Positions 19,879 to 37,865 of a stretch of DNA of 64,000 nt are shown piece by piece. Position 1 is the stretch's first letter; the number at the start of each line of letters is the position of its first letter. Made by a program: the position numbers and the translations under genes. The notes beneath the pieces are model-generated. The model saw only the letters and a list, made by a program, of their open reading frames with translations. It was not told the DNA's origin and made no database searches. The stretch covers positions 1 to 64,000 of the forward strand of contig NZ_JANHDJ010000007.1 in NCBI RefSeq assembly GCF_024494645.1, in the 5' to 3' direction. This DNA comes from Halohasta litorea. GTDB lineage: Archaea > Halobacteriota > Halobacteria > Halobacteriales > Haloferacaceae.

Positions 19879-20001
19879 GGACGAAACGCGACAGTCCAGA
19901 ACACCACCCCGACACTGCCGCGGCGTGTGTGTCAGTCACAGACAGCGGCAAGTACGTACCCTTGCGGAATCAGTTAGCCAGCCGGGAGACTATTTGTGGT
20001 G

Positions 20002-20598: not shown

Positions 20599-20607
20599 CT
20601 GGGAGAC

Positions 20608-21366: not shown

Positions 21367-21439
21367 AAGCCGTGTAACCGCTTTTTCAGTTCTAAATGTA
21401 CGTGCGAGATTCTTTAGGCGAAGCCGTGGACTGGGCCGT

Positions 21440-22105: not shown

Positions 22106-22226
22106 CGGCTCGGTCGATCAGCCGGAGCGTCGAGTCGACCACGGCCCCTTTTATAAATCGACGATCATCTCGCTTCCGTCGGACGTGACCCCAAGGTAGT
22201 TCACTCACGGCGGTCGACGGGACAGT

Positions 22227-22895
22227 ATGGCAGACAGTGCCGACCGCAGCCGGGCAGTCCTGTTCGATATGGACGGCGTCATCGTCGACTCCGAGCGCTA
22301 CTGGCGGACCGAACAGCCCGACCACATTTTCCCGGCGACGCTCGCCGGCGAGCATCCGGATCTCGACGAGACGACCGGGATGAACTACCGGGAGATCTAC
22401 GACCATCTCGATGCGCACTACGAGACGAAAATCAGTAAGGCGGAGTATATCGAGATCTTCGACGAGACGGCCCGGGAGATCTACAGCGAGCGCGTGGGGC
22501 TCCTGGATGGCTTCCACGACCTCGTCGAGGACCTCCGGGCGGCGGGCGTACCGGTCGCGATCGTCACCTCCGCGCCGCCGTCGTGGCACAAGATCGTCAC
22601 CGAGCGGTTCGACGTCGACGTAGACGAAACGATCAGCGCCGAGGATATCGACGGTGACGGCAAGCCCGCCCCCGATATCTACGAGTACGCCGCCGGAGTG
22701 GTCGACCGCGAGCCGGGCGACTGTCTCGTGATCGAGGACTCGAAAAACGGCATCGAGGCCGGGAAGAACGCGGAGATGGCCGTGATCGCCTACCGCAGCG
22801 GGCCGAACGACGACACCGACCTCTCGGCAGCCGACGCCATCGTCGAGAGCGCCGCGGAACTCCGCGAGGCGATCCGCTCGCGGGCGGGACGCTAA
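22227..22895 (+). CDS. HAD-superfamily hydrolase, copy 2 (tandem paralog)
   Basis: 222 residues, co-linear with the preceding gene over its whole length: LFDMDGVIVDSERYW, EIYDHLDAHYETKISKAEY, GLLDGFHDLVEDL, VAIVTSAPPSWH, DGDGKPAPDIYEYA and EDSKNGIEAG. All catalytic HAD residues are kept, so it is not a decaying copy. Differences concentrate in the cap region, which suggests a shifted substrate. It has its own upstream region (22106-22226) with an AT-rich TTTTATAAATCG at about 22150. Its stop overlaps the convergent Cu-ATPase stop (22892-22895). Confidence 0.92.
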   Translation: MADSADRSRAVLFDMDGVIVDSERYWRTEQPDHIFPATLAGEHPDLDETTGMNYREIYDHLDAHYETKISKAEYIEIFDETAREIYSERVGLLDGFHDLVEDLRAAGVPVAIVTSAPPSWHKIVTERFDVDVDETISAEDIDGDGKPAPDIYEYAAGVVDREPGDCLVIEDSKNGIEAGKNAEMAVIAYRSGPNDDTDLSAADAIVESAAELREAIRSRAGR

Positions 22896-25297
22896 TCCAG
22901 CGGCCGGAGCGTCGAGTTCAACACGACAAGCAGGCTGCTGGCCCCCATGGCGACCGCCGCAAATAAGGGATTTAAGAGGCCGGTCGCCGCCAGCGGGATG
23001 GCGACCCCATTATAACAGAAGGCCCATGCGAGGTTCTGCCGGATGCGGCTCCGGGTCTTGGAGGCGATCGTAAACATTCTCGGCACGGCCGAGAGGTCGC
23101 CGTCGACGACGATCACATCGCCCGCGTCGGTGGCGAGTTTTGTCCCGGTGGCCAGTGCGACCCCGAGATCAGCCGCCGCCAGCGCGGGGGCGTCGTTGCT
23201 CCCGTCGCCGATCATCGCAACACGACCCTGGGACTGGAGCCGCCGGATCGTCTCGGCCTTCGCTTCGGGTGGCACGCCCGCGAAAACGTGGTCGACCGCC
23301 GGGTGGGTCTCGAAGGGCCGGGTGGCGGCAGAGTCGTCGCCGGTGAGGACGACGATCTCTCGGTCGCCGTCAGCCAGCGAGTCGACAACCGCCTTCCAGT
23401 CGGCCTTCGGCTCGTCGCCGACGCCAATGACGCCCTGGATCGTCTCGTCCCAACCGACCACGACCGCGACATCCCCCTGTTCTGTCAGTCGGTCCGCCTC
23501 GGTGTGGTAATCGTCGGGGTCGGCCCACCCCTCGAACAGCGAGGAGTGGCCGACGGTTACCTCGCGGCCTGCGACCCGGCCGCGGACCCCCGTGTCGAAA
23601 GTCTCGACCGTGTCGACGCCGCCGATCGTCTCAGTCGCCGTAGCCGACACGAGTTCGCCGCCATCAGTAGCGTGTTCGCTCGCCGCAGGCGTGGCGTCAG
23701 TGGTCGAAGCGGCGGCGACAATAGCATCGGCGATGGGGTGGGCCGAGGCGCGCTCAAGGGCAGCCGCAGTCGACAACAGGTCATTGGGATCGTCGCCTGC
23801 CACCTCAGTCACCTGCATCTCGCCGCTGGTGAGCGTCCCCGTCTTGTCGAGGGCGATCACGTCGACGTCGGCCGCCGTCTCGAAGATTGCCGAGGAGGCC
23901 ACCACCATCCCGCGGCTGGCAGCAGTCTGGATTCCCTGTGCAACTGCCAGCGGCGTCGCGAGTCCCAGCGCGCAGGGACAGGAGGCGATGACGACCGTCA
24001 GCCCCACCAACAGGGCGGCGGTCGGCGAGCCGCCCGAGAGGAGCGTCCAGCCAGCGGCCAGCACCCCCACCGTCAGCACCAGCGGGACGAAGATCGTCGC
24101 CAGTTTGTCGGCGAAGCGCTGGACGCCCGGCGAACCGCTTTGAATCTCCCACAGTAGCTCGACGATCCGGTCGAGGGTGCTTTCGGCCGCCTCGCCCGCC
24201 CGAATCGTCAGCGGCTGGTCGGTGACGACCGTCCCGCCCCGTACGTCGTCGCCCGGCCGCTTGGTTCGCGGCACCGACTCCCCGGTTACCAATGCCTCGT
24301 CGACCGCCGCGACGCCCGACTCGACGACGCCGTCGACCGGAATCCGGTCGCCCGGTCGGACCAGCAGCTCGTCGTCGGGCTCGATCGCTGAGACGGGAAC
24401 CGTCGAACCATCGGGGCGGCGGGCTTCGTCGACCTGGATCGTCGTCAGGTCCGTGAGGAGATCGGAGGCCCGCCCCTTGATCGTCGATTCGTAGTAGTTG
24501 CCGACCGTCACTACGAGGATGATGGCGACGGTGACGTCGAAATACAGGTCGGTCCGGCCCATCACCATCGCCAGTGTGCTGTAGCTGTAGGAACCGAGGG
24601 CCGCAACTGAGACCAGCAAGTCCATGTTGGGTTGTCCCGCCCGGAGGCTGACGTAGGCTCCGCGGAGGATCGGATACCCCGTATAAAAGAGCACGAGCGA
24701 GGCCAAAAGCCAGAGCTGCGCGAACAGATAGAGGCCGTCGAAGCCGCCGAGGTCGACCAGCGGCTCGATGTCGAAGTAGGTCGGATAGAGAAACAGGACG
24801 TACCACAGCATCGTCATCATCCCGAACAGCCCGCCGCCGACGAGGAACTTCACGACCTCGATATCGCCCGCCAGCTCGCGGTCGGCCTCGACCGAGCGCT
24901 CGGTGGCCTCGTAGCCGTACCCCGAGACGAGGTCTGGCAGCTCGTCGGCCGCCAGCTGGTCGGGATCGTAGTGAATTTTGAGGGTGTCGGTCGCGTAGCT
25001 CGCGCTGACCGCCCCGATGCCCTCGTGAGATGTGGCCGTCGACTCCAGGAAGGCCTCACAGGTCGAACAGTGCATCCCCGAAACGCTGAGGTACTGCTCG
25101 TCGTACCCCGCCAGATCGTCGGCGGCGTCGGTTGCCTCGCGGAGCTGGGCGCTGGCCGTCTCGGCGTCGGCCGCGGCGACGTCATCGACCGTCCGAGCGA
25201 CCGCCAGACAGCCCCGACAGCAGTACTCGCCGTCGACGTCCGGATCCGTGATCGGGGGCGACGGCGTATCGAGGTCACAGAGGGTACAGTTGCTCAT
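22892..25297 (-). CDS. Copper-type P1B ATPase (CcoI/FixI-like)
   Basis: 801 residues. The N-terminus has a Cys cluster (C4, C7, C26, C27, C30; CTLCDLD then EYCCRGC), typical of the ATPases that serve terminal-oxidase assembly. An HMA domain follows with SGMHCSTC (C77, C80). Then come the transmembrane CPC motif (ASCPCALGLATP), the phosphorylation site DKTGTLTSG, TGES in the actuator domain, and GDGSNDAPAL. It exports Cu(I) across the membrane. The adjacent ba3 oxidase genes suggest that the copper is for oxidase assembly rather than detoxification. It follows a 61-residue membrane protein gene on the minus strand, divergent from cbaDBA. Confidence 0.93.
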   Translation of the reverse strand: MSNCTLCDLDTPSPPITDPDVDGEYCCRGCLAVARTVDDVAAADAETASAQLREATDAADDLAGYDEQYLSVSGMHCSTCEAFLESTATSHEGIGAVSASYATDTLKIHYDPDQLAADELPDLVSGYGYEATERSVEADRELAGDIEVVKFLVGGGLFGMMTMLWYVLFLYPTYFDIEPLVDLGGFDGLYLFAQLWLLASLVLFYTGYPILRGAYVSLRAGQPNMDLLVSVAALGSYSYSTLAMVMGRTDLYFDVTVAIILVVTVGNYYESTIKGRASDLLTDLTTIQVDEARRPDGSTVPVSAIEPDDELLVRPGDRIPVDGVVESGVAAVDEALVTGESVPRTKRPGDDVRGGTVVTDQPLTIRAGEAAESTLDRIVELLWEIQSGSPGVQRFADKLATIFVPLVLTVGVLAAGWTLLSGGSPTAALLVGLTVVIASCPCALGLATPLAVAQGIQTAASRGMVVASSAIFETAADVDVIALDKTGTLTSGEMQVTEVAGDDPNDLLSTAAALERASAHPIADAIVAAASTTDATPAASEHATDGGELVSATATETIGGVDTVETFDTGVRGRVAGREVTVGHSSLFEGWADPDDYHTEADRLTEQGDVAVVVGWDETIQGVIGVGDEPKADWKAVVDSLADGDREIVVLTGDDSAATRPFETHPAVDHVFAGVPPEAKAETIRRLQSQGRVAMIGDGSNDAPALAAADLGVALATGTKLATDAGDVIVVDGDLSAVPRMFTIASKTRSRIRQNLAWAFCYNGVAIPLAATGLLNPLFAAVAMGASSLLVVLNSTLRPLD

Positions 25298-25351
25298 GGT
25301 CGACGGTCGGGCGGCCGGAGGTGGGAGTACCGAAGGCGAGACATCGTGGCC

Positions 25352-25537
25352 TCAGGCGTGCGTCGAGTGGCCGTGGCCCCCGTTCGAGACGGGGGTGAAG
25401 ATGAGATACAGCGAGGTGGCGATAATACCGATATTGAGCAGCGAGACGGCCACGATCGGGTCCGAAACCAGCGTGTAGTAGGCGATCGCTGGGAGGGCAC
25501 CGAGACTCAGGAGGCTGGCAGTACGTGGTGATACCAT
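25352..25537 (-). CDS. Small membrane protein with His-rich tail, upstream of the Cu-ATPase
   Basis: 61 residues, two predicted helices (SLLSLGALPAIAYYTLV and IVAVSLLNIGIIATSLYLIF) and a C-terminal tail NGGHGHSTHA with three His that could bind copper. A TATA box GTTATATTTC (minus strand, about 25569-25560) lies 25 nt before the ATG at 25537. It is followed after 54 nt by the Cu-ATPase gene and is presumably cotranscribed with it. I do not recognise the family. The location suggests a role in the oxidase or its copper supply. Confidence 0.72.
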   Translation of the reverse strand: MVSPRTASLLSLGALPAIAYYTLVSDPIVAVSLLNIGIIATSLYLIFTPVSNGGHGHSTHA

Positions 25538-25579
25538 TTGGTCAGCCTACCGAGGCTTGAAATATAACTCTTTGTCCGC

Positions 25580-25598
25580 ATTCCCAGCCAGCGGGAAT
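25580..25598. promoter_or_regulatory. Inverted repeat between the divergent oxidase and Cu-ATPase promoters
   Basis: ATTCCC (25580-25585) and GGGAAT (25593-25598) form a perfect 6-bp inverted repeat with a 7-nt spacer. It lies between the minus-strand TATA (25560-25569) and the plus-strand TATA-like CTTTTACAG (about 25610-25618). It could be a shared operator for both transcripts. This is inference from position and symmetry only. Confidence 0.4.
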
Positions 25599-25642
25599 CC
25601 AGAACTCACTTTTACAGAATGTTTTGCAAACTACAACCAACA

Positions 25643-25801
25643 ATGTCCGGAGAGAATACAGTCAGGGAGATCGGACACGACGAGTTCGACCCATACGGAA
25701 CGCTGGCGCTGATACTGATCTATTTCGCGATCCTCAGCGTCATGTGGGTCTTCATGTACTTCGTCGAGTTCCTGGGTAACGATCTCACAGTCCTCGCATA
25801 A
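25643..25801 (+). CDS. cbaD: ba3-type oxidase small subunit (CbaD-like)
   Basis: 52 residues: an N-terminal cytoplasmic segment (SGENTVREIGHDEFDPYGTLALIL) and one transmembrane helix (LILIYFAILSVMWVFMYFVEF). This is the layout of the single-helix subunit IIa of ba3-type oxidases. Its position directly before subunit II (one base between stop and start) supports the call. A TATA-like CTTTTACAG lies about 27 nt upstream of ATG 25643. An ATG eight codons earlier is less likely. Confidence 0.8.
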   Translation: MSGENTVREIGHDEFDPYGTLALILIYFAILSVMWVFMYFVEFLGNDLTVLA

Positions 25802-25802
25802 G

Positions 25803-26309
25803 ATGAACATTCACAACTACGAGAAACTCTGGCTCGTGTTGGCGATGGTGATGATTATCGGCTTTATCAGTACGGTCGTCTACGGGGCGACGGCGGTCGG
25901 GATCGAGATGGTCAACGACGAGGGCGGGACGATCGACTCGACTGCGCTCGAAGAGGACGATCGGTTCGCCGAACCGCGGGTCGAACGGGTGGGTGACAAC
26001 GAGTACGAGGCCTACGTGGTCGCCCGGCAGTTCATCTTCGAGCCCGATCCCATCGAGATCCCCGCAAACAGCACGCTGACGTTCTACGTGACTTCGCCGG
26101 ACGTGATCCACGGCTTCGAGGTCGTCGGCACGAACGCCAACGCGATGGTGATTCCGGGCGAGGTGACGGAGCTGACCGTCGAGCTGAACGAGCCCGGGGA
26201 GTACGGCATCCTCTGCAACGAGTACTGCGGCGGCGGCCACCACACGATGGAAGGCAAACTGATCGTCCAGCCGGAAGACGAGTTCGAACAGGGAGGCAAC
26301 GATGAGTGA
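25803..26309 (+). CDS. cbaB: ba3-type cytochrome oxidase subunit II (CuA)
   Basis: 168 residues with one N-terminal helix and an external cupredoxin domain. The binuclear CuA ligands are all visible: H103 (DVIHGFEV), then C138, E140, C142, H146 and M149 in LCNEYCGGGHHTMEG. It accepts electrons from halocyanin or a c-type donor outside the membrane and passes them to subunit I. The short length and single helix match B-type (ba3) oxidases. Its last codons overlap the start of subunit I by 8 nt. Confidence 0.94.
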   Translation: MNIHNYEKLWLVLAMVMIIGFISTVVYGATAVGIEMVNDEGGTIDSTALEEDDRFAEPRVERVGDNEYEAYVVARQFIFEPDPIEIPANSTLTFYVTSPDVIHGFEVVGTNANAMVIPGEVTELTVELNEPGEYGILCNEYCGGGHHTMEGKLIVQPEDEFEQGGNDE

Positions 26310-28095
26310 GCAGCTCGAATCGGGCGCGCCGACGTTCCTGGATGACTACCCCAAGGAGGCGGCGGTCGTCAAGGCGGCACTCTGGAGTTCCTTCATCGCG
26401 CTGGCCCTCGGGGCGGTCTTCGGGGTTATCCAGGCGCTCCACCGAACGAACATCCTGCGGCTGATCGACTCGACCGACTACTACACGGTGTTGACCGCCC
26501 ACGGCGTGCTGATGGTGGTCTCGTTTACCATCTTCTTCCTCGTGGGGCTCTTTACGTGGGCGACCGTCCGGAGTTTCGATCGGGGCGTCGAGTCTATCCG
26601 CTACACCTGGACCTGGTACGGGCTGATGGTCGCCGGGACGCTGATGGCGGTCGTCGCCATCCTCGGCGGCTTCGTCCCCCAGACCGACATCAGCGCCGAC
26701 GTGCTGTTCACGTTCTACGCGCCGATGCAGGCCCACCCGCTGTTCTACGGCGGACTGACGATCTTCGTCATCGGGACCTGGCTCGCAGGCGCCGACTGGT
26801 TCTGGTCGTGGCGAGCGTGGAAAGCCGAAAACCCCGACGAGCGCATCCCGCTGCAGGCGTTTATGGTGCTGACGACGATGCTGATGTGGTACATTGCGAC
26901 CATCGGCATCGCCATCGCGGTCGTCGTTTTCCTCCTGCCGTGGTCGCTGGGGATTTTCGACCAGATCAACCCCCTCTTAACACGGACGCTGTTTTGGTTC
27001 TGGGGCCACCCTGTCGTCTACTTCTGGCTCATGCCTGCCTACCTGCTGTGGTACACTGTCCTGCCGACGATCTCGGGCGGTCGGCTGTTCAGCGATCCGC
27101 TCGCTCGCGGCGTCTTCGTGCTGTTCCTCCTGCTGTCGACGCCGGTTGGCATCCACCACCAGTACGTCGACCCCGGCATTGCGGAAGGGTTCAAAGTGAT
27201 CGCAATGACAAACACGATGTTCCTGCTGCTGCCGAGTCTGCTGACGGCCTTTACGGTCGTCGCAAGCGTCGAACACGGCGCACGACAGCGGGGCGGCACT
27301 GGCCTCTTCGGCTGGCTGCGGGCGCTGCCGTGGCGTGACCCGGCCTTTACCGGGATGATGCTCGCGGGACTCATGTTCGCCGCTGGTGGCTTCAGCGGGA
27401 TGATCAACGCCGGGATGAACATCAACTACCTCATCCACAACACCATCTGGGTGCCGGGGCACTTCCACCTCACCGTCGGCACCGCCGTCGCGCTGACGTT
27501 CATGGCGGCGACCTACTGGCTGTGGCCCCAGTTGACGAATCGACGGCTGTTCAGCCGACCGATCGCGCTGGCCCAGGTCGTCATCTGGTTCGTCGGGATG
27601 GGCCTAATGTCGAACGCGATGCACGTCATGGGACTGTTCGGCGTCCCGCGGCGGACCGCCGAGCCGCAGTACGAGGGCTTCGAGTTCGTCACCTCCTTCG
27701 GTTCGATCACCGAACTGCGGCTCCAGCTCGCTATCGGCGGCACGCTGCTTTTCATCTCGACGGTGCTTTTCGTCTCGAACATCGCGCTCAGTGCGGGCGC
27801 ACCGAAACTGAGCGGGCTCGGCAAGCCGCTGTCGGAGCCGCTGTCGGGGGCTCACGACTCGCCGGAGATCCTGGACAACCTGAAACTCTGGTTCGGGATC
27901 GCCTTCGTGCTCGTGGTGCTTGCCTACTCGCTGCCGCTGGCGAGCATCATCAGCCGCGGTGGGGTCCTGGGTCCCGGCGTCGATCCGGTGCCGATGATCA
28001 TCGAGCCGCTCGGGGCGACGCTTGAGCCACTCGTTGCCAGCCTCCAGCCGCTGCTGGGTCGGCTCGCTGCCGTTGTCGGAGGGGTGGGAGCATGA
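26302..28095 (+). CDS. cbaA: ba3-type cytochrome oxidase subunit I
   Basis: 597 residues with about 13 helices. Reduces O2 at a heme-CuB centre and pumps protons. Visible ligands: the low-spin heme His in TVLTAHGVLMVV, CuB/cross-link region FWGHPVVYFWLMPAYL (His and Tyr), the CuB His pair in GIHHQYVDPGI, and heme His residues in VPGHFHLTVGTAVALTF. The short P-V-V-Y-F-W segment and the lack of a K-channel Glu/D-channel pattern fit B-type oxidases. It overlaps cbaB by 8 nt and the next gene by 4 nt (ATGA). Confidence 0.95.
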   Translation: MSEQLESGAPTFLDDYPKEAAVVKAALWSSFIALALGAVFGVIQALHRTNILRLIDSTDYYTVLTAHGVLMVVSFTIFFLVGLFTWATVRSFDRGVESIRYTWTWYGLMVAGTLMAVVAILGGFVPQTDISADVLFTFYAPMQAHPLFYGGLTIFVIGTWLAGADWFWSWRAWKAENPDERIPLQAFMVLTTMLMWYIATIGIAIAVVVFLLPWSLGIFDQINPLLTRTLFWFWGHPVVYFWLMPAYLLWYTVLPTISGGRLFSDPLARGVFVLFLLLSTPVGIHHQYVDPGIAEGFKVIAMTNTMFLLLPSLLTAFTVVASVEHGARQRGGTGLFGWLRALPWRDPAFTGMMLAGLMFAAGGFSGMINAGMNINYLIHNTIWVPGHFHLTVGTAVALTFMAATYWLWPQLTNRRLFSRPIALAQVVIWFVGMGLMSNAMHVMGLFGVPRRTAEPQYEGFEFVTSFGSITELRLQLAIGGTLLFISTVLFVSNIALSAGAPKLSGLGKPLSEPLSGAHDSPEILDNLKLWFGIAFVLVVLAYSLPLASIISRGGVLGPGVDPVPMIIEPLGATLEPLVASLQPLLGRLAAVVGGVGA

Positions 28096-28313
28096 ACCGA
28101 ACCTCGAAGGCGGGCATCCTCGTCGGCAGTGGGATGCTGTTTGTTATCGTCTGGGAGATCCGCAGCGCGCTGGGGCTGCTGGTAGGGATCGACACCAACC
28201 CACAGCTCTACATGCTGCTGACCCTCGCGATCGTCGGTCTCACGGCATTCGCCCTCGCCATCGGTCTGATCGGCGTCACGCCCGAGACCCCCGCGGACGA
28301 AGACACCTCGTGA
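28092..28313 (+). CDS. Small oxidase-linked membrane protein (CbaE-like)
   Basis: 73 residues with two helices (GILVGSGMLFVIVWEIRSALGLLV and LYMLLTLAIVGLTAFALAIGLIGV) and an acidic tail. It overlaps the end of subunit I by 4 nt (ATGA), so it is translated with the oxidase. Haloarchaeal ba3 operons often carry a small protein at this place named CbaE. Assignment is by position and topology, not by a catalytic motif. Confidence 0.7.
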   Translation: MNRTSKAGILVGSGMLFVIVWEIRSALGLLVGIDTNPQLYMLLTLAIVGLTAFALAIGLIGVTPETPADEDTS

Positions 28314-29020
28314 GTCGGATGGCCTTCGACGCGACGAGCATGCTCCAGGAGCTCATCGATCGATCGCCGTCGACGGTCGCCCTCCTGGGGGCGGGCCTCG
28401 CGGTCGGCATCTATGCGGTCGCCACCAGCGCGTATCTGGCGGCCGTCGGGCCGACAATCACCGATCTCCGGGTGTTCGTCTACCCGCCCGTCTGGATCGG
28501 TGTGAGCGTCGCCGCGGCCCTCTGGGTCGACCGAACCGTTCGTCACCGACCGCGGCCGTGGCTCGGGCGGGCCGTCGGCATCGCCTACGTCCTCGGCATC
28601 GCGTGGCTGAGCGGGCTGGTCGATGTTAGTTCCGGGATGACCACGCTCCGCGTGGTGTCGACGCTGCCCGGCTGGGGGCCGATCGGCCTCTACGACAACG
28701 GGCTGGTGAGCCTCTCGGTCGTCCCGTTCAAACTGGTCGCCTACCTCGCGCTCGGCCACATCGTCGCGGTGTTGGTGGCCGCCCAGGGCGGATCGGCCCG
28801 TGCGGCGGCCCTCGGAATGGCCTCCTGTGTGAGCTGTGCGGCCCCGCTATTGCTGGCGGTCGGTGGCCTCCTCGGCGGGGCTCAGGCGACCTCAATGGTG
28901 GCCTCGATCGGCTACGACATCGCCACCGTGCTACTGGTCGCCACGTTCGCCCTGCTCGCACGGGCAGCCGGTCGAACGACCCCCGACGAGGCTGCCAACG
29001 CTCCAGGAGGCGGGCCGTGA
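28310..29020 (+). CDS. Membrane protein with CxxC in a helix, oxidase operon
   Basis: 236 residues with about six helices, not recognised as a named family. The striking feature is MASCVSCAAPLLLAVGGLLGG, a CxxC (C173, C176) at the start of a membrane segment. That resembles the thiol/copper-handling motifs of CcdA-type or copper-chaperone membrane proteins. Start GTG at 28310 overlaps the preceding stop (GTGA), as the next gene does too. ATG 28319 is an alternative. Operon position after cbaE and before a thioredoxin-like protein suggests a part in oxidase assembly or copper insertion. Confidence 0.78.
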   Translation: MSRMAFDATSMLQELIDRSPSTVALLGAGLAVGIYAVATSAYLAAVGPTITDLRVFVYPPVWIGVSVAAALWVDRTVRHRPRPWLGRAVGIAYVLGIAWLSGLVDVSSGMTTLRVVSTLPGWGPIGLYDNGLVSLSVVPFKLVAYLALGHIVAVLVAAQGGSARAAALGMASCVSCAAPLLLAVGGLLGGAQATSMVASIGYDIATVLLVATFALLARAAGRTTPDEAANAPGGGP

Positions 29021-29547
29021 ACCGGCGTCGACTACTGGCCGGACTCGCTGGAGTGGGCGTGGTCGGCGGCGGCTGGGCCGCCAGCAGCGGCTGGGCGGCT
29101 GACGACGGGGCGATCGACGATACGCCGACCGCCGAGTTCACTGTCGAAACAATCGACGCGCCGGGGAGCAGCGCCGGGACGCTCACCGTCCCGGGCAACC
29201 GGCCGATGCTCGTCGACTTCGTCTCGGTCGGCTGCGAAGTCTGTAGCGACTCGATGCCCGCCCTGACGGAGTTCCAGGAGACCCGCCGCGAGTCGCTGCG
29301 GTTCGTCTCGCTGTCGACCGACCCGGTCGGCTTCTCGGTCGAACAATCGAGTCTTCGGGAGTGGTGGGCCGACCACGACGGCGCGTGGCCGCTGGGGGTC
29401 GACAGCCAGCTGTCGGTCGCCAACCGACTGGACGTGAGCAGCGTCCCGACGGCGGTCGTCATCGACAGCGAGGGACAAATCCGTGGCCGTACCAGCGGCC
29501 GGAAATCGATCGAAAAACTCGACTCACTGGTCGAGCCGGTTTTATAA
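29017..29547 (+). CDS. Tat-exported thioredoxin-like (TlpA/redoxin) protein
   Basis: 176 residues. The N-terminus MNRRRLLAGLAGVGVVGGGW is a twin-arginine signal. The mature part is a thioredoxin fold with the redox-active pair C73-x-x-C76 in DFVSVGCEVCSDSMPAL, and a cis-Pro segment VSSVPTAVVIDSEGQI. It probably keeps oxidase cysteines (for example the CuA pair) reduced outside the membrane. GTG start overlaps the previous stop by 4 nt (GTGA), so it is the last gene of the cba operon. Confidence 0.88.
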   Translation: MNRRRLLAGLAGVGVVGGGWAASSGWAADDGAIDDTPTAEFTVETIDAPGSSAGTLTVPGNRPMLVDFVSVGCEVCSDSMPALTEFQETRRESLRFVSLSTDPVGFSVEQSSLREWWADHDGAWPLGVDSQLSVANRLDVSSVPTAVVIDSEGQIRGRTSGRKSIEKLDSLVEPVL

Positions 29548-29641
29548 AAGGCGGTCGCCGAATCGGGTTCGAGTATCGGCCGGATTATGAACCGTTGACG
29601 GCCGCATGTGCTGTTTTCACCTGATGAGAATCGAATACGGC

Positions 29642-29649
29642 CTTATAAG
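29642..29649 (+). promoter_or_regulatory. TATA box ahead of the winged-helix regulator
   Basis: CTTATAAG at 29642-29649 is palindromic and lies about 26 nt before the ATG at 29672. This points to a transcript starting at or next to that ATG, 58 nt ahead of the regulator's own start at 29730. Confidence 0.5.
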
Positions 29650-29671
29650 CGGTGGTCGACACAGTGAGAGT

Positions 29672-29722
29672 ATGCGAGCCGACACGATAGCACAGCAGGG
29701 CCACGGAGACCGGAGATGGTGA
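29672..29722 (+). CDS. Possible 16-codon leaderless upstream ORF
   Basis: ATG at 29672 sits where the TATA box at 29642-29649 predicts the transcript to begin. It opens a frame of 16 codons (MRADTIAQQGHGDRRW) ending TGA at 29720-29722, eight nt before the regulator start in another frame. It could be a regulatory leader peptide, chance, or the remnant of an N-terminus split by a frameshift. No homology can be judged at this length. Confidence 0.3.
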   Translation: MRADTIAQQGHGDRRW

Positions 29723-29729
29723 AGGGCGG

Positions 29730-30257
29730 ATGACCCGCGAGAAGATCCACGAGTACGTCGCGGCCAATCCGGGCGTCCATTTCAACGACCTGGCTCGATC
29801 GCTCGACCTCGCGCCGGGACAGGTCCAGTACCATCTCCGAAAACTCAAGCGAAACGACGAAATCGTCGAGGAGCCGCTCTACGGCCGGACCCACTACTTC
29901 ACGCCGGAGTACGACGAAGGCGAACGCGGGGCGCTGGCGGTCGCCCGCCGCGAGACGGCCCGCGACATCCTCGTGACGCTGCTTATAAACGGGCCGAACA
30001 CGCCGAACGCGGTCGCCGAGGAGATCGACATCGCCCGCAGCACCCTGGAGTGGCACCTCGACCACCTCGTCGAGCAGGGGCTGGTCGACAAACGGCGGGA
30101 GGACGGCAACCGGATCAGGCTCGTCCTCGCCGATCCGGAATCGACGACCGGGCTCCTGCGGACGGTCGAACCGTCGCTGCTCGCCCAGTTGTGTGCGGGC
30201 TTCTCGCGGCTGTTCGACGGCGTCTTCGCGGTCGACCCGCGGCCGACCGACGGATAG
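29730..30257 (+). CDS. Transcription regulator with two winged-helix domains
   Basis: 175 residues. Domain 1 is REKIHEYVAANPGVHFNDLARSLDLAPGQVQYHLRKLKRNDEI, and domain 2 is ARDILVTLLINGPNTPNAVAEEIDIARSTLEWHLDHLVEQGLVDKRRED. Both are ArsR/MarR-like HTH units with a following wing (YFTPEY; RIRLVL). This tandem architecture is frequent in haloarchaeal regulators. It lies between the cba operon and the convergent nosDFY operon, so it is a candidate regulator of the island. No metal-binding Cys cluster is evident. Confidence 0.88.
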   Translation: MTREKIHEYVAANPGVHFNDLARSLDLAPGQVQYHLRKLKRNDEIVEEPLYGRTHYFTPEYDEGERGALAVARRETARDILVTLLINGPNTPNAVAEEIDIARSTLEWHLDHLVEQGLVDKRREDGNRIRLVLADPESTTGLLRTVEPSLLAQLCAGFSRLFDGVFAVDPRPTDG

Positions 30258-30271
30258 AACTGCGGTCTCTT

Positions 30272-31096
30272 TTATAAGTGCCTACGGGAGAGCAGCAGTG
30301 TCGCCGCGAGCAGCGAGCCGACGAGCCAGCCCACGAGGCCGAACAGGCTCCACAGCGGCGCGGCGGAGCCGCCCTCACCCGCCGAAGCGACCCCGATGAC
30401 GGTCTCGAAGACCAGCCCCCGGTAGGCGCTGTTGGGCGCGACCGCCAGCGCCGACAGCAGGTTCGACTCCGTGAGCCAGCCGTCGGCCAACCCCAGGACG
30501 ATCAGGGCGTCGCCACCCGCCGCGGCCAAGAGGACGCCGCCGGTCGCCAACACGATCGCCGCCCGCACCGACCGGGCGACGACCGACAGCAACACGACCA
30601 GCGCCTCCATCGCCAGCCCGAACAGCAGCGTGAGCACGATGAAGCGCCCCCAGAGGATCGGCGAGTCGACGCCGGAGTGGGTGGCGAAGACGGTCGTATC
30701 GGGGCCAGCGGCGACGGCGATCACCAACCCCGAGACCAGCAGCCCGCTGAGAAGGACAGCTGAGAGAACGGCCGCACGCCCCACGTAGATGGCGGCGACG
30801 TAGACCCACGCGGGGACGTTGTAGGTCTCCAGGACCGCGAGTTCGCCGCGTTCGAGATCGTCGACGACGCTCCGGTAGCCGACGGCGATGGCGACAAGCG
30901 GCACCAGCAGTTCCAGCGGCAACAGCAGGTCGACGACCGCCGGAAGGTAGCCCGTCTGGGCCCCACCTCCGCCAGCAGTTAGTGCGAACAGCAGGCCCGC
31001 AACGCCGACCGCCAGCAGGGCGTAGATCCGGGTCCGGGCCACCGTTTGGAGTTCGCGGGCAACGAGAGTCCGAAACTGCGAGCGTGCGCCGGTCAT
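30272..31096 (-). CDS. nosY: NosY-like ABC transporter permease
   Basis: 274 residues with six hydrophobic helices, and an N-terminal FRTLVARELQTVARTRIYALLAVGVAGLLFAL typical of NosY/ABC-2-type permeases. The large first loop carries VVDDLERGELAVLETYNVPAWVYVAAIYVGR, close to the conserved NosY segment. NosY forms the membrane part of the NosDFY transporter, which delivers copper or sulfur for the copper sites of nitrous oxide reductase in denitrifiers. Here it is last gene of nosD-F-Y, with 4-nt overlaps throughout, and no nosZ is present. Confidence 0.87.
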   Translation of the reverse strand: MTGARSQFRTLVARELQTVARTRIYALLAVGVAGLLFALTAGGGGAQTGYLPAVVDLLLPLELLVPLVAIAVGYRSVVDDLERGELAVLETYNVPAWVYVAAIYVGRAAVLSAVLLSGLLVSGLVIAVAAGPDTTVFATHSGVDSPILWGRFIVLTLLFGLAMEALVVLLSVVARSVRAAIVLATGGVLLAAAGGDALIVLGLADGWLTESNLLSALAVAPNSAYRGLVFETVIGVASAGEGGSAAPLWSLFGLVGWLVGSLLAATLLLSRRHL

Positions 31097-31815
31097 GCCT
31101 CGACCTCCCGGCGAGCGGCAGGCTCCCGGATGACTGATTCATAAACCTCCCAGAGCGTCTCCGCGTTGGTCGCGTCGGCGAGTTCGGCGGGCGAGCCGCT
31201 GACGACGACCGAGCCGCGGTTGAGGAAGACGACCCGGTCGGCGAACCGCTCGACCAGCGACAGATCGTGGGAACTGACGAGGACTGCAGTGCCATCAGCC
31301 GCGCGGTCGGCGAGCGTCTCGAAAGCGCTGGTTGCCATACTCGGGTCAAGCCCGCTGGCTGGCTCGTCGAAGACGGCCACTGGCGGCTCCCCGACGAGCG
31401 ATTGGGCGATCCCCAGCAGGCGGCGCATCCCGCCGGAGAGCGCCTCGACCCGGCGGTCGGCGGCATCCGCGAGTCCGACACGCCGGAGGGCTACCTCGGT
31501 CTCGGCGGGCTCGTCGAGCAGCGCGGCGTAGAAGGCGATCGTCTCGGCGGCGGTGAACTGCGGCCGAAAGGACGGCTGCTGGGGCAGGTAGCCGATGGGC
31601 CGGTCGACCTCCGGGCCCGTGTACCGGACCTCACCCGCAGTTGGCGAGAGATGCCCCAACAGAATCCGAAGCAGGGTGGTCTTCCCGGTGCCGTTGGGGC
31701 CGACGATAGCGGTGAGTTCGCCGGGGGCGACCGCGATGTCGACGTCCTCCAGGACCGACAACTCACCGTACTCGTGGTACAATCCCTCCCCGACGAGAAT
31801 CGGATCGGTGGTCAT
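31093..31815 (-). CDS. nosF: NosF-like ABC transporter ATPase
   Basis: 240 residues. Walker A GPNGTGKTTLL, Q-loop YLPQQPSFRPQFTAAE, signature LSGGMRRLLG, Walker B VAVFDEPASGLDP and the switch His in VLVSSHDLS are all present. With NosY it forms the energised transporter NosFY. Start ATG 31815 overlaps the nosD stop by 4 nt, and its end overlaps the nosY start by 4 nt. Confidence 0.92.
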   Translation of the reverse strand: MTTDPILVGEGLYHEYGELSVLEDVDIAVAPGELTAIVGPNGTGKTTLLRILLGHLSPTAGEVRYTGPEVDRPIGYLPQQPSFRPQFTAAETIAFYAALLDEPAETEVALRRVGLADAADRRVEALSGGMRRLLGIAQSLVGEPPVAVFDEPASGLDPSMATSAFETLADRAADGTAVLVSSHDLSLVERFADRVVFLNRGSVVVSGSPAELADATNAETLWEVYESVIREPAARREVEA

Positions 31816-33809
31816 GGCTGGGCCTCGCTTCTACCGGCTGACGGGTCGGCTGTAGCAGTCATGGCTGTGGTGTCGTTGGTGGGGAGGGCATCGATCCCGT
31901 GGGTCACGACGGTCGACGACCGGCGGAGCAACGCGGGGTTCTGTGGGTCGGTCTGTGGGTCGGGATCGATGACGCTCCCCGAGCGGAGTCCTGGAGCCGA
32001 TCCCCGGAGCGCCCGCAGCCCCTTTTTAACTGGTGATTCGGCAACCGTCCGCCGGGCGGGCGAGCGGTGGAGTTGGCCGTCCACGGAGTCGGTCGGGACG
32101 TAGGCGCGGTCGTAGGTGTCGCCGGTGGCCTCCCCGTAGGCCCCCTGCCAATAGTTGCCGTGACCGTTGTGGGCCCAGACCCGGAGCGGTCCGGCGCTGG
32201 CTCCGGCGTGATGCTCGTTGTCGACGAAGTCGTTCTTCCAGACCCGGCTGGTCGCCAGCACCGAGCCGGTCCGCATTCCGTAGGTGTTGTTCCGAACGAC
32301 GTTGTGCTCGTACAGCGAGCCGATCGCGCTGGTCGTGATTCCGATCCGGCTGTCGACGGCGATGTTGCGGGCGATATAAGAGTCCGAACCGCTGGTCGAG
32401 ATGGCGTTCGAGGTGTTGGCCACGACGTTGCCGACGATGGCGTTCCGGGCAGGGTCGGTCATGATTGTGATGCCGCCGAACTCCTGGTCGGCAAAGCGGT
32501 TCTCGGCGACGACCGCGTCGGAGGTGTGCATCAGGTGGACGCCGTAGCGGTTCGCCCGGAACGTGTTGTTCCGGATGACGGTCTCGGGCGAGCGGTGGAG
32601 ATAGATCCCATCGCGGCCAGCCCGGAACGTCGAGTCCTCGACGACGACCGACGACCGCATTGCCATCACGCCCATGAAGCCGTCGTTCCATTTCGGAGGC
32701 CCTGTCACCGAGAGGTTCCTGACGACTGTTTCGGGGCTATCGCGCAACAGCACCCCGTTGGCGGGCGTCGACGGGACAGTCACGTCGGCGACGTGGACGC
32801 CGGGCGCGCCGACCGCTGCGATCGCCGCATCGCCGTGGCCGTAGCCGAGTTCGATGTTGGCGTCCCACTCGTCGCCGGTGACAGCCGACTCGTCGCGGGT
32901 CTGGTTGCCGATTCCGGTGATTGTAGGCCCGACGATGCCCACATCGTCGGCCGTCACACGAACCGGCGAGCCGGTGCCGTTGCCCACGATCGTCGCCCCC
33001 GGCCCGCGGAGGGTGATCGAGCGATCGATCTCGATCGGCCCCTCGTAGCGGCCAGGAGCGAGCCGGATGCCCGAGCCGTTGGGAGCACCGTCGATCGCGG
33101 CCTGTATCGAGTCGCCGGGGTCGAGTTCGGCTGTTACCTCGCGGTTCAGGAGCGGTCGGTCGGCGGCAACGCGGGCGTCGGCTGCGGCCCGCTTGTCGTC
33201 GACGCCCTCGCGGACGACCGACGCGTCGTCGAGTTCGATCGGGCGGTCGGTGAACTCGGTCCAGGAGAGCACCGACCCGCCGGTCTCTTCGGCGAACGCG
33301 TCAGCATCGCCGCGGTCGGCGAAGGGGACGCCGACCGGGCCGCCGGGCGTCGACGCACCGCTATCGACGACGAAGGCCGCCTCGTCGGCACTGACCCACG
33401 TGGGGCGGTCGTCGGTGTGGATCGTCCCGTTGGCGTCGAGAGTGAGCCCCGTGTCGTCGTAGGCGGTGACGTAGGTGACGACGGGGTAGCCGAACTGCTG
33501 TTGGCGAGTGGGTTCGTCGAAGGCTGCCGCCGCGGTCTCGACGCCGTAGTAGCCGATCACGTACTGGTACTGCGAGTAGAACACCTGTGCCCGCGGAATC
33601 TGGCTGTCGTCGTCGATCCCCAGCGAGACCTCGGAGGCGAAGCCGACAGACCGGGTGTCCTCGAACGGAACCGGGTCGGGCACCGAGGCGTCGACATCGG
33701 CGACGAACAGGCCGCCCGCGAGGAGTCCACAGACCAACAGGCCGACGGCAACCACACCGAGGGTGTGGTCGGCGAGCAGTCGACCGAAAGGCGTTCGCAT
33801 ATACTCCAC
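31812..33809 (-). CDS. nosD: NosD-like beta-helix protein with NosL-like N-terminal region
   Basis: 665 residues. After an N-terminal membrane anchor (about 16-37), residues 70-187 look like a NosL domain without the copper motif: VVTYVTAYDDTGLTL and VPFADRGDADAFAEETGGSVLSW parallel segments of the NosL protein at 34625-35200. From about 225 a right-handed parallel beta-helix follows (SIQAAIDGAPNGSGIRLAPGRYEG, then repeats such as ETVIRNNTFRANRYGVHLMHTSDAVVAENRF). NosD is the extracytoplasmic partner of NosFY in copper-site maturation. Start MEYMRTPFGR; the ATG three codons in is possible. It heads nosD-F-Y and is divergent from the ccdA-like gene. Confidence 0.9.
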   Translation of the reverse strand: MEYMRTPFGRLLADHTLGVVAVGLLVCGLLAGGLFVADVDASVPDPVPFEDTRSVGFASEVSLGIDDDSQIPRAQVFYSQYQYVIGYYGVETAAAAFDEPTRQQQFGYPVVTYVTAYDDTGLTLDANGTIHTDDRPTWVSADEAAFVVDSGASTPGGPVGVPFADRGDADAFAEETGGSVLSWTEFTDRPIELDDASVVREGVDDKRAAADARVAADRPLLNREVTAELDPGDSIQAAIDGAPNGSGIRLAPGRYEGPIEIDRSITLRGPGATIVGNGTGSPVRVTADDVGIVGPTITGIGNQTRDESAVTGDEWDANIELGYGHGDAAIAAVGAPGVHVADVTVPSTPANGVLLRDSPETVVRNLSVTGPPKWNDGFMGVMAMRSSVVVEDSTFRAGRDGIYLHRSPETVIRNNTFRANRYGVHLMHTSDAVVAENRFADQEFGGITIMTDPARNAIVGNVVANTSNAISTSGSDSYIARNIAVDSRIGITTSAIGSLYEHNVVRNNTYGMRTGSVLATSRVWKNDFVDNEHHAGASAGPLRVWAHNGHGNYWQGAYGEATGDTYDRAYVPTDSVDGQLHRSPARRTVAESPVKKGLRALRGSAPGLRSGSVIDPDPQTDPQNPALLRRSSTVVTHGIDALPTNDTTAMTATADPSAGRSEAQP

Positions 33810-33966
33810 CTTGCCGACTCGCGGCTTTACCGTCTCTGGTACGGCCGTCGAATCCCGCGACGGTCAGGGTGCGACGAAAACAGCACGTTTACAATCGCAC
33901 ACGATACACAATACTGAACACACTCGGAGACGACCTACAGGTCGACGACTCCGGGATACCGGGCTC

Positions 33967-34617
33967 ATGAACGGCACCCTCCTCAACGAGATCGGGCTTG
34001 CAGTCGGCACGGGCGTGGCGACGTTCTTCTCGCCGTGTGCATACGCGCTGTTGCCGGGGTACGTCGGCGTCTATCTGGGAGCCAGCGGTGACGACCAGTC
34101 GCTGGTCGACGACGCGGTCTACGGGCTTGCGGCGGCGGTCGGCGTGCTCGTCGTGGTCGGCCTCACGATTGCCGCGGTCGCCGCGGTCGGCGAGCCAGTC
34201 AGGGAGTTAGTGACGTGGATCGAACCGCTGACGGGGATCGCCCTCATCGGGTTCGGTCTCCTGTTGCTCCGGGGGTCGGCAGTCGGCTGGCACATCCCCC
34301 TGCCCGAACAGCGGTCCGGCGTCGTCGGCTTCGGGCTGTTCGGGGCAGTATACGCGATCGCCGCGGTTGGCTGTGTTGCGCCGCTGTTTTTCGGGCTCGT
34401 GCTCAACGCGCTCCGGTCGGGAGTCACACAGAGCATGATCGTGATCGGGGCCTACGGCGGGACGATCGCGGCGCTGCTGTTGGGGTCGACGTTCGCCATC
34501 GGCATGGGATATGAACTCACCGAGCTGAAACTGGCCCGGCTGTCGGTCGTCGGTCGGCGGCTCGGCGGCGGCCTGCTGGTAGTCGCCGGAGCGGTCCAAC
34601 TCGCACTAACGATTTAA
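33967..34617 (+). CDS. CcdA-like cytochrome biogenesis membrane protein
   Basis: 216 residues with six helices. GVATFFSPCAYALLPGYVGVYLG carries the first conserved Cys with the CcdA-type PCxxxLLP pattern. AIAAVGCVAPLFFGLVL carries the second. CcdA shuttles reducing equivalents from cytoplasmic thioredoxin to exported thiol proteins, so it could reduce the TlpA-like and SCO proteins of this island. ATG 33967 starts just before the first helix, and longer frames upstream are rejected. It is convergent with nosL. Confidence 0.87.
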   Translation: MNGTLLNEIGLAVGTGVATFFSPCAYALLPGYVGVYLGASGDDQSLVDDAVYGLAAAVGVLVVVGLTIAAVAAVGEPVRELVTWIEPLTGIALIGFGLLLLRGSAVGWHIPLPEQRSGVVGFGLFGAVYAIAAVGCVAPLFFGLVLNALRSGVTQSMIVIGAYGGTIAALLLGSTFAIGMGYELTELKLARLSVVGRRLGGGLLVVAGAVQLALTI

Positions 34618-34624
34618 AAACGCT

Positions 34625-35200
34625 TCAGGATTTGATGCTGTCGACCAACTCGCGGTCGACGTCGGTCGCCGCCAGCACCTCGCCGCCGTACTCCTCGGCG
34701 AAGGATTCGGCATCGGCCTCGTCGCTGAAGGGGATGAGATCCGGCCCCATCGAACCGATGACCTCGCTGTTGGCGACCACCGAGAGCGCGGATTCGACCT
34801 CGTAGTTCTCGGCGGCGAGGTGCGCCGAGATCGCGGGCTGATCATCGCCCTCAACGGTGTAGTCGACCTCGCTGTAGTCGGTGAGATAGGTGACGATTGG
34901 GGTGGCGTCCTCAGCGACCCGGTCGGACCGATAGGTGTAGGTACAGGTGCCGCTGCAGAACCACGCCGGGCCGTCGCGGTCGGGGTGGTCCTCGAAAAAC
35001 ACCTGGCCGGTCGGACCGGGGTGTTCCTGGATCACCATCCCACACTGATCGCAGCTCTGGCTCTCGTCAAGGGTGACTGCCGCCGGGAGATCGTCGCCCC
35101 CGCCGGTACAGCCCGCGAGCCCGACTACCAGCCCGCCGCCGACGGCTGTCAGCACGGTTCGTCGATCGAGATCCGCCTCGGTCTCGGGTGGAACGACCAT
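34625..35200 (-). CDS. nosL: NosL-family copper-binding lipoprotein
   Basis: 191 residues. The N-terminus has a Tat signal with lipobox (DRRTVLTAVGGG...GLAGC, Cys31). The NosL copper site is C50-DQ-C53-G-M55. A second pair C82-x-x-x-C86 (WFCSGTC) follows. The C-terminal region (IGSMGPDLIPFSDEADAESFAEEYGGEVL) is typical of NosL. NosL binds Cu(I) and hands it to NosD/NosZ in denitrifiers. Without NosZ here, the likely client is CuA of the ba3 oxidase. TATA-like GTTAACTC (35230-35222, minus strand) lies about 25 nt upstream. Confidence 0.92.
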   Translation of the reverse strand: MVVPPETEADLDRRTVLTAVGGGLVVGLAGCTGGGDDLPAAVTLDESQSCDQCGMVIQEHPGPTGQVFFEDHPDRDGPAWFCSGTCTYTYRSDRVAEDATPIVTYLTDYSEVDYTVEGDDQPAISAHLAAENYEVESALSVVANSEVIGSMGPDLIPFSDEADAESFAEEYGGEVLAATDVDRELVDSIKS

Positions 35201-35316
35201 ACGAATACGAGAGATAGTAGCGAGTTAACGAATCTGGTACGAGCCTCGAAGACCGCGTGGCGGATTCGAGAGGTCGACCAGAGCGTACTTTGGTGTCGGA
35301 CGGTATTGTACAGCAA

Positions 35317-36003
35317 ATGCAACGACGGAGCGTGCTTCGGCGAGCGGCCGCGGCGGGCGCGGCCGGAGTAGTCGGGGCGACCGCGGGCTGTCTCACCGGA
35401 CTTTTCGAGTCGGGACCGACAAACGTTGTCCTGGACGAACCGGAGGACCAACTCGCCGACAGCGAGGATCTGGGCTACCCGGCCTACGGCCAGACGTTCC
35501 CCGACTTTACCCTTCCCGAGGTTTTCGCCGAGGAACCCTACTCGTCGGCCGACCGCGACCGGCCCGGCCTGTACACCAGCTTCTATGCGTTCTGTCCGGC
35601 CGAGTGTCTCCTGTTGATGGGTGGGATGGCCAACGTCCAGTCGACGCTAGCCGACCGCGAACTGCTCGATGCGGTCGATCTGGTGGGGATTACGTTCGAT
35701 CCGACCCGCGACACCCCCGAAGAGCTCGACAGCCACGCAGAGGAGATGGGCATCCGCCACGGCCACGAGCGGTGGCACTACCTCCGGCCCGAGAGCGACG
35801 AGCGCGCCGAGGAAGTCGTCGGCGACAAACTGGGCATCGGCTTCGAGAAGACCGGCGGCGGCGAGACCTACGAGTTTACCCACATCACGATTACGTTCCT
35901 CGTCAACCCCGACGGTGTCGTCGAGCGGGCCTATCGGGGCGAAACACTCGACGTTGAGGGGGTCGTCTCCGACCTCGAAACCGTCGTCGACGCCTACGCC
36001 TGA
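35317..36003 (+). CDS. SCO1/SenC-family copper chaperone, lipoprotein
   Basis: 228 residues. The N-terminus MQRRSVLRRAAAAGAAGVVGATAGC is a Tat signal with lipobox Cys25. The thioredoxin-like SCO domain contains the copper/redox motif C93-P-A-E-C97 and the distal ligand His189 in YEFTHITITFLVNPDG. ITFDPTRDTPEEL is a conserved SCO segment. SCO proteins metallate or reduce the CuA site of cytochrome oxidase. ATG 35317 is chosen because it starts the signal peptide and lies about 28 nt after a TATA-like GTACTTTGG. The SafE-type gene follows after 9 nt. Confidence 0.92.
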   Translation: MQRRSVLRRAAAAGAAGVVGATAGCLTGLFESGPTNVVLDEPEDQLADSEDLGYPAYGQTFPDFTLPEVFAEEPYSSADRDRPGLYTSFYAFCPAECLLLMGGMANVQSTLADRELLDAVDLVGITFDPTRDTPEELDSHAEEMGIRHGHERWHYLRPESDERAEEVVGDKLGIGFEKTGGGETYEFTHITITFLVNPDGVVERAYRGETLDVEGVVSDLETVVDAYA

Positions 36004-36012
36004 GATCCACTG

Positions 36013-36837
36013 ATGGTCTTCCCCGTACTCCTCCAGACGTGTACGCCGTCGGGCCCGGCAGGTGCGCTCGACGGTGCGACCGTCAGCCTCGGTGTCTTTT
36101 TCCTGATCGGCCTTTTCGGCGGCGCCCACTGTCTCGGGATGTGTGGCCCGCTGGTGACGACCTATGCCGACCGGATGGACGGTGGAGGGTCGAAAAGTCG
36201 GTCGAACCGGCTGTCGGTGGGAATGGTCCGCCAACACGGCCTGTTTAATCTGGGGCGGACGCTGAGCTACACGCTCATCGGCGGCCTTTTCGGACTGGCT
36301 GGTTCGCTCGTGGCCGTCTCGGTCGGACAGGTGACGACACTCCTGCGCGAACTCAACATCGTTGTCGGCCTCACGGTCGGCTTGCTCATCATGGCCGCCG
36401 GGGTGAACTACCTGCTTCGGGGGCGAGTGTTGTCGCTGCCCGGTGAGTCGCTGTTCGGGCCACTCACTCGGGCCGTCCAGCGCCGCCTCACCGCGCGGAT
36501 CGACGCCTCGGTCGACGGGCCGGGCATCCTCGGACTGGGCGCGCTCCACGGCCTGCTGCCGTGTCCGCTGTTGTACCCCGCCTTCCTCTATGCGTTCGTC
36601 CAGGCATCACCAGCCGGTGGAGCGGTCTCGCTGGCCGTGTTGGGGCTCGGTACGATCCCCTCGTTGTTTATATATGGGACGCTGTTTCAGTCGCTGTCGA
36701 CGACCACCCGAACTCGGCTCCACCGGGTGCTCGGCGTCGCGTTCATCCTACTGGGCTACATCCCGCTGCAGCATGCGCTGATGTTGCTGGGCGTCGACCT
36801 TCCGCATCCGCCGATCCCGTTCTACCAGCCGCTGTGA
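36013..36837 (+). CDS. TauE/SafE (UreH-2)-type membrane protein
   Basis: 274 residues with about six helices. FLIGLFGGAHCLGMCGPLVTTYA carries the GGxHCxGMCG signature of the family found beside cbb3/ba3 oxidase assembly genes and copper ATPases. LHGLLPCPLLYPAFLYAF is the second Cys-containing half. These proteins are thought to move or hold metals or thiols in the membrane. It sits 9 nt after the SCO gene in the same transcript and ends the copper island. Name transfer to sulfite export would be unsafe. Confidence 0.87.
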   Translation: MVFPVLLQTCTPSGPAGALDGATVSLGVFFLIGLFGGAHCLGMCGPLVTTYADRMDGGGSKSRSNRLSVGMVRQHGLFNLGRTLSYTLIGGLFGLAGSLVAVSVGQVTTLLRELNIVVGLTVGLLIMAAGVNYLLRGRVLSLPGESLFGPLTRAVQRRLTARIDASVDGPGILGLGALHGLLPCPLLYPAFLYAFVQASPAGGAVSLAVLGLGTIPSLFIYGTLFQSLSTTTRTRLHRVLGVAFILLGYIPLQHALMLLGVDLPHPPIPFYQPL

Positions 36838-36908
36838 GGCCGCAGGGGATTCCTACGCAGTGGGAAGGCGCGTCCGGTATTATGTGATCGACAGTCGATG
36901 ATTCGGGT

Positions 36909-37169
36909 ATGACACAGCAATCCGGCACACAGACGGCTGATTCGGGGAGTGACACGCTCTTCAAGCTCATCGGCGTCGCACTGGTCGCGCTCTCGGCGGT
37001 CGTTCTCGTCGCGGTGCTGTGGTACACCGTCGGCCTCGCCGCCCTCCAGTCGATCGCCAGCCCGTTCGTCCTCGGCACCGTCGTCTTCACGGTGGTCGTC
37101 GCCATCGTCTTTAAAAAGAGCTCGGACGTTGTCGACCGCGAGATTGCCCACAAGCGTAGCAGGAACTGA
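36909..37169 (+). CDS. Small two-helix membrane protein
   Basis: 86 residues: a Thr/Ser-rich start (TQQSGTQTADSGSD), two helices (LIGVALVALSAVVLVAVLWYTVGLAAL and PFVLGTVVFTVVVAIVF) and a basic tail KKSSDVVDREIAHKRSRN. TATA-like GGTATTATG lies about 25 nt before ATG 36909, supporting a leaderless gene separate from the SCO/SafE transcript. No family recognised. Confidence 0.65.
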   Translation: MTQQSGTQTADSGSDTLFKLIGVALVALSAVVLVAVLWYTVGLAALQSIASPFVLGTVVFTVVVAIVFKKSSDVVDREIAHKRSRN

Positions 37170-37306
37170 GCCGTCCGTTGCTCGGCTGGATCGGTATCGA
37201 GGGGAGACGCTGTTATAAATCCAGAATAGTTCTCGGTCGCAGTACGAAGTGAGACCCCTGATCAAACAGCACTGGGAACCAACGATCTACGGCACCAACC
37301 CGTCTC

Positions 37307-37810: not shown

Positions 37811-37865
37811 GCTGTTATGACTATATTTATAAATATTAAACCTTTGTCAATTGTCGGCTCAAGTT

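Follow-up and report, generated by a model that had tools for sequence, protein, structure and literature searches.

Structural work on the NosDFYL copper machinery is said to show that NosL passes Cu(I) to NosD and that NosFY drives a conformational switch. To our knowledge, little is known about how B-type oxidases, and archaeal ones above all, are supplied with copper. The locus described here, in a stretch of 64,000 nucleotides of Halohasta litorea DNA ('the window'), places the genes of a Nos-type machine beside those of a cytochrome ba3 oxidase. It shares with the Pseudomonas stutzeri NosDFY–NosL system (PDB IDs: 7o0y and 7osf) a NosD β-helix, an ABC ATPase with its permease, and a Cu(I)-binding NosL lipoprotein. 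NosD, F, Y and L are likewise shared with the canonical haloarchaeal nos cluster (loci L201–L206), which runs halocyanin–nosZ–membrane protein–nosD–nosF–nosY–nosL.

We consider it probable, at roughly 60%, that the cluster in the window consists of cytochrome ba3 together with a dedicated extracytoplasmic copper-loading set, the core of which is a NosL–NosD fusion protein (hereafter NosLD) with NosF, NosY and a standalone NosL. The genes of the cluster are as follows:

22892–25297, minus strand: Cu(I) P1B-type ATPase, CcoI/FixI-like, with an HMA domain, a CPC motif and two additional N-terminal CxxC motifs
25352–25537, minus strand: small membrane open reading frame of 61 residues
25643–25801, plus strand: cbaD, small ba3 subunit, 79–88% (BLAST) to Natronocalculus and Halohasta salina
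25803–26309, plus strand: cbaB, ba3 subunit II, with the full CuA motif CxxxCxxxHxxM
26302–28095, plus strand: cbaA, ba3 subunit I (heme/CuB), Pfam COX1 3e-87
28092–28313, plus strand: cbaE, small ba3 subunit
28310–29020, plus strand: membrane protein with CxxC, Pfam DUF7546
29017–29547, plus strand: exported thioredoxin-like protein of TlpA/ResA type, with CEVC
29730–30257, plus strand: double winged-helix regulator, HVO_0163-N type
30272–31096, minus strand: nosY, ABC-2 type permease
31093–31815, minus strand: nosF, ABC ATPase with Walker A and LSGG
31812–33809, minus strand: NosLD ('nosD'), with a transmembrane anchor, a ligand-less NosL-like domain and a NosD β-helix
33967–34617, plus strand: CcdA-like membrane protein (C24, C136)
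34625–35200, minus strand: nosL, Tat lipoprotein, with C50xxC53xM55 and the GxMG methionine M151
35317–36003, plus strand: SCO1/SenC protein, Tat lipoprotein, with CPAEC
36013–36837, plus strand: DsbD_2/SafE-type membrane protein, with HCLGMCG

The 660-residue product of 'nosD' (start codon uncertain, GTG 33809 or ATG 33800) begins with a transmembrane helix, followed by the NosL-like domain and then the β-helix. The NosL-like domain spans approximately residues 50–185 of the protein (P0001; Pfam NosL 1.1e-11 at 67–183), and the β-helix spans residues 228–625, where Pfam NosD matches at 2.6e-22 and 79.8 bits (cut-off 23.6). As the stricter NCBIfam model TIGR04247 scores 182 bits, below its cut-off of 300, while Pfam NosD is passed, we regard NosLD as a divergent member of the NosD family. 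Both Pfam domains are present in all 46 aligned NosLD members, and phmmer matches the protein to the solved structures of NosL (2hpu, 3e-6) and NosD (7o0y). An AlphaFold model (pLDDT 85.5, pTM 0.83) was searched with Foldseek, which ranked NosD first and also found NosL (7og7, TM 0.68 of target). VIA-align superposed model residues 228–625 on NosD 7o0y with Z = 40.4 over 365 residues (root mean square deviation 4.3), and unrelated β-helices scored lower, at Z = 32.7. Sequence, Pfam and model thus concur that this 'NosD' is a NosL–NosD fusion; the initial annotation, which called it nosD, overlooked the N-terminal domain, which makes the protein a distinct one.

The two halves of the fusion differ in their ligands. 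In the fused NosL domain of 89 relatives, the CxxC, the histidine and the GxMG methionine have all been lost, with 12 of the 89 having a methionine at the M55 column only. In the β-helix, H420, M422 and M445 are invariant in alignments of 25 and 46 rows, with H400 nearly invariant in the former, and phmmer alignments place H420, M422 and M445 on the His, Met and Met of P. stutzeri NosD, a correspondence that would fit a Cu(I) site in the β-helix. The standalone NosL of the window (Pfam NosL, 126.6 bits) retains its Cu(I) ligands, as do 60 of 64 standalone sequences, and the NosF ATPase and NosY permease share an operon with NosD. NosLD-F-Y with NosL is a Halobacteriales variant of the NosDFYL machine. 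A further group of fused NosL–NosD proteins, subfamily B (L107–L112, L114, L117 and L115:11317–13419), lacks H420, M422 and M445; its nosF and nosY are divergently oriented and NosL is mostly missing. Because of the absent residues and the scarcity of NosL we counted subfamily B apart, and its function is probably different; 'ligand-bearing NosLD' below excludes it, including the one L115 copy.

Across 155 Halobacteriales genomes NosD takes two forms, a short one of about 460 residues and the long, fused NosLD. The short form adjoins NosZ and co-occurs with it (27/28, odds ratio (OR) 463). In the canonical clusters L201–L206, a conserved membrane protein of 240–310 residues lies between NosZ and this NosD. 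Ligand-bearing NosLD instead tracks cbaA: 60 genomes have both, 12 NosLD only, 17 cbaA only and 66 neither (OR 19.4, p = 1e-15), an association far stronger than that with NosZ or NirK. Stratification, which controls for relatedness only in part, gives a Mantel–Haenszel OR of 10.6 by family and about 5 within genus. The co-occurrence of nosDFY–nosL with cbaA in nosZ-negative haloarchaea, suggested as a check in the initial annotation, is clear in the NosZ-free genomes (42/7/10/62 in the same order; OR 37), and it persists in genomes free of both NosZ and NirK (17/3/7/42, OR 34). In the wider sample of 393 genomes of the phylum, all NosLD matches among those listed fall within Halobacteriales and none outside it, with bacteria covered only by contig L154. 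That contig, labelled a Nitriliruptoraceae bacterium metagenome-assembled genome (MAG), carries NosLD-F-Y 44–54% identical to the window proteins and is likely mis-binned.

NosZ, which the initial annotation reported missing from the window, is missing from the whole genome (34 contigs, 99.94% complete) according to three models, which between them span the classical and clade III enzymes: nos_propeller has no match, the Sec-NosZ model matches only with its CuA/cupredoxin end, and clade-III L-NosZ gives weak partial matches only. A hidden NosZ, clade III included, was thus looked for and not found, and the machine lacks in this genome the NosZ client that defines a NosDFYL maturation system. 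Another contig of the genome (C29, positions 20000–39900; locus L207 of G000) carries a nitrate reductase subunit, a halocyanin, NirK and a qNor-like gene, the reductase subunit and the qNor-like gene being named by sequence inspection. With Nar-type, NirK and qNor-like genes present and NosZ absent, the genome looks like that of a truncated denitrifier.

A member of the same genus, G444 (one contig of 3,332,022 bases), lacks the 15-kb block 22885–37878 as a unit: the HAD gene on one side of it and the helicase gene on the other are neighbours there, 87 bp apart; no NosLD was found in G444 among the matches listed. G444 has one CuA subunit and the window genome two. From the absence of the block and these counts we conclude that the module and the ba3 genes come and go as one, and that the second oxidase in this genus manages without the module. 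No direct or inverted 9-mer repeats were found at the block ends, and the GC content of the block is 0.655, compared with 0.631 and 0.647; foreign composition and repeats at the ends were accordingly rejected. To the left of the block the window has two tandem HAD-phosphatase-like genes (21257–22105 and 22227–22895); G444 has a single HAD-sized region there, to which both copies align with 72% and 83% nucleotide identity.

The gene set and tight overlaps given in the initial annotation both hold. Each named gene lies at the coordinates first given for it as an intact open reading frame with family support, and neighbouring frames overlap by 8 bp (cbaB/cbaA) or 4 bp (cbaA/cbaE, cbaE/DUF7546, DUF7546/TlpA-like, nosY/nosF and nosF/nosD). 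The cbaDBAE–DUF7546–TlpA-like run lies on the plus strand and the nosD-F-Y run on the minus strand, with the ccdA-like, nosL, sco and DsbD_2 genes alongside. The label 'CcdA-like' has the backing of motif and BLAST similarity, but not of a Pfam match. Subunit I with a CuA-bearing subunit II, in cba order, identifies cytochrome ba3, and a CxxxC inside the SCO domain identifies SCO1/SenC. Motifs are intact in the ATPase (CPC and DKTGT), SCO (CxxxC), the thioredoxin-like protein (CxxC) and NosF (Walker A and LSGG). The 61-residue membrane frame is conserved next to cbaD and the ATPase gene across seven related cluster loci (L046, L127–L129, L131, L137 and L199). Among 75 named loci, Halohasta salina is the closest named relative, with identical gene order and 73–91% identity of the core proteins.

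NosLD neighbourhoods were compared in these 75 named loci and in 80 loci from a genome survey, with SCO, DsbD_2 and the regulator counted within 10 kb. NosF and NosY nearly always accompany NosLD, and NosL is present in 66/80 survey and 65/75 named loci. SCO lies nearby in 18/80 and 37/75, DsbD_2 in 14/80 and 30/75, and the double winged-helix regulator in 26/80 and 34/75. NosLD adjoins cbaA or another heme-copper oxidase in Halohasta, Natronocalculus, two Halonotius, the Halalkalirubrum relative SHRA6, Natronoglomus, Haloarcula salina, a Salinarchaeum MAG and f6 (two genomes), and a gene for CoxB, heme-A synthase or both is adjacent in other families (L047, L048, L106, L119 and L123).

The ba3 oxidase is therefore probably the client of the module. 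The initial annotation had NosDFYL metallating CuA of ba3; service to the oxidase is well supported by co-occurrence, linkage and the block-wise absence in G444, and specificity for CuA is not. Several observations weigh against an oxidase client. The majority of genomes do not have the module adjacent to cbaA, and 17 cbaA-positive genomes, some of them incomplete, lack ligand-bearing NosLD; the sampled genomes are also related to one another, which stratification corrects for only in part. Genome G010, a single contig that is 98% complete, carries NosLDFY and NosL, every ligand in place, beside a halocyanin (L084, 8362–13738), and heme-copper oxidases, CuA subunits, NirK and NosZ are all missing from it. 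Genus g43 has NosLDFYL with SCO, TlpA and CcdA, and its single oxidase is not of the cbaA type. Given G010 and g43, the oxidase is the usual rather than the strict partner of the module. In addition, NosL has been described as CuZ-specific under copper sufficiency, where its deletion spares CuA of NosZ, both centres failing under copper limitation (PMC6530538). As CuA suffers only at limitation, CuB is an equal candidate, and the site filled could be CuB, CuA or both. That the machine is aimed at CuB in subunit I, with SCO, thioredoxin and CcdA handling CuA, is on balance unlikely as a specific proposal; it has the parallel of NosZ, where NosL and NosDFY build the catalytic CuZ (PMC6530538) and SCO-type factors serve CuA (PMC7558416), and SCO and NosLDFY are found together, a pairing that suggests roles that complement rather than duplicate one another. 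Against it, the neighbour of the module in G010 is a cupredoxin, and that genome has no oxidase.

The same genome favours a broader supply of extracellular Cu(I) to cupredoxin-type proteins (halocyanin, CuA domains, NirK), the link with cbaA then reflecting copper-demanding lifestyles, as do the halocyanins near NosLD in 5/75 loci and a weak overall association with NirK (OR 2.9). We find this explanation doubtful, since NirK adds nothing once cbaA is given (OR 1.4 among cbaA-positive genomes), which excludes it as main client, while cbaA remains strong in NirK-negative genomes (OR 32), and since G444 has lost the block and the ba3 genes as one while retaining a different CuA oxidase subunit. 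The denitrification genes on C29, with NosZ absent, could also mark the cluster as a remnant of a lost NosZ pathway. This is highly improbable and largely refuted: the NosZ-linked NosD of haloarchaea is a separate protein, shorter and with no NosL domain, the two forms coexist in many NosZ-positive genomes, and dozens of NosZ-free ones have an intact, conserved NosLDFYL.

Returning to an oxidase-directed module, the known NosDFYL relay makes the same relay toward the oxidase the simplest reading. The P1B ATPase would export Cu(I) from the cytoplasm, and the NosL lipoprotein would capture it through Cys-x-x-Cys-x-Met, His and Met, dock on NosLD and hand it to the His/Met site of the β-helix; NosFY, using ATP, would then reshape NosLD so that NosL is released and the apo-subunit of the oxidase bound. 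Docking is the probable role of the fused NosL domain, which has no ligands: it would hold NosL in position or fill the NosL site in cis. Keeping the cysteines of CuA in reduced form, and helping with insertion, may fall to SCO, CcdA and the TlpA-like and DsbD_2 proteins. Both this transfer sequence and the part given to the fused domain are inferred. More tentatively, and at somewhat less than even odds, the system may be an order-wide, NosZ-independent Nos branch dedicated to heme-copper oxidase, with the metal-free NosL domain as its built-in docking module, and possibly the first ATP-driven inserter of cytochrome-oxidase copper. If so, the Nos machinery would be a general loader of copper sites rather than specific to N2O reductase, and nosDFY or nosL genes in haloarchaea could not be taken as a sign of N2O reduction; the long/short NosD distinction offers a simple marker.

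Orphan NosFY in haloarchaea is already known, being cited for Haloferax volcanii (PMC9240420), and nosFY of Halobacterium has been described as a copper ABC transporter (PMC3600143). Bacillus azotoformans has nosDYF/nosL clusters apart from nosZ (PMC3475470), and both this and the H. volcanii case have in common with our locus Nos accessory genes without NosZ alongside; unlike here, the accessible parts of these reports propose no oxidase client and describe no NosL–NosD fusion as such. The Haloferax mediterranei NosD HFX_RS15875 is assigned to the NosL as well as the NosD family (PMC9240420, table 3), so automatic annotation had already seen the domain pair, but it is treated only as a NosZ accessory, with fusion and ligand loss unanalysed. 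Our literature search, mostly outside subscription journals, found neither a link between NosDFYL and an oxidase nor an analysis of the fusion. With the SCO/PCuAC and CcoI/FixI assembly factors the locus shares SCO, a thioredoxin-like protein and a P1B ATPase beside oxidase genes, but in the literature found these are not united with a Nos-type ABC machine. The NosD of the canonical haloarchaeal cluster, tied to NosZ, has about 459 residues, no NosL domain and 24–30% identity to NosLD. Compared with P. stutzeri, there is no NosZ/CuZ client in the genome, the neighbours are a ba3 oxidase and SCO, and NosLD has an additional ligand-less NosL domain and an N-terminal anchor.

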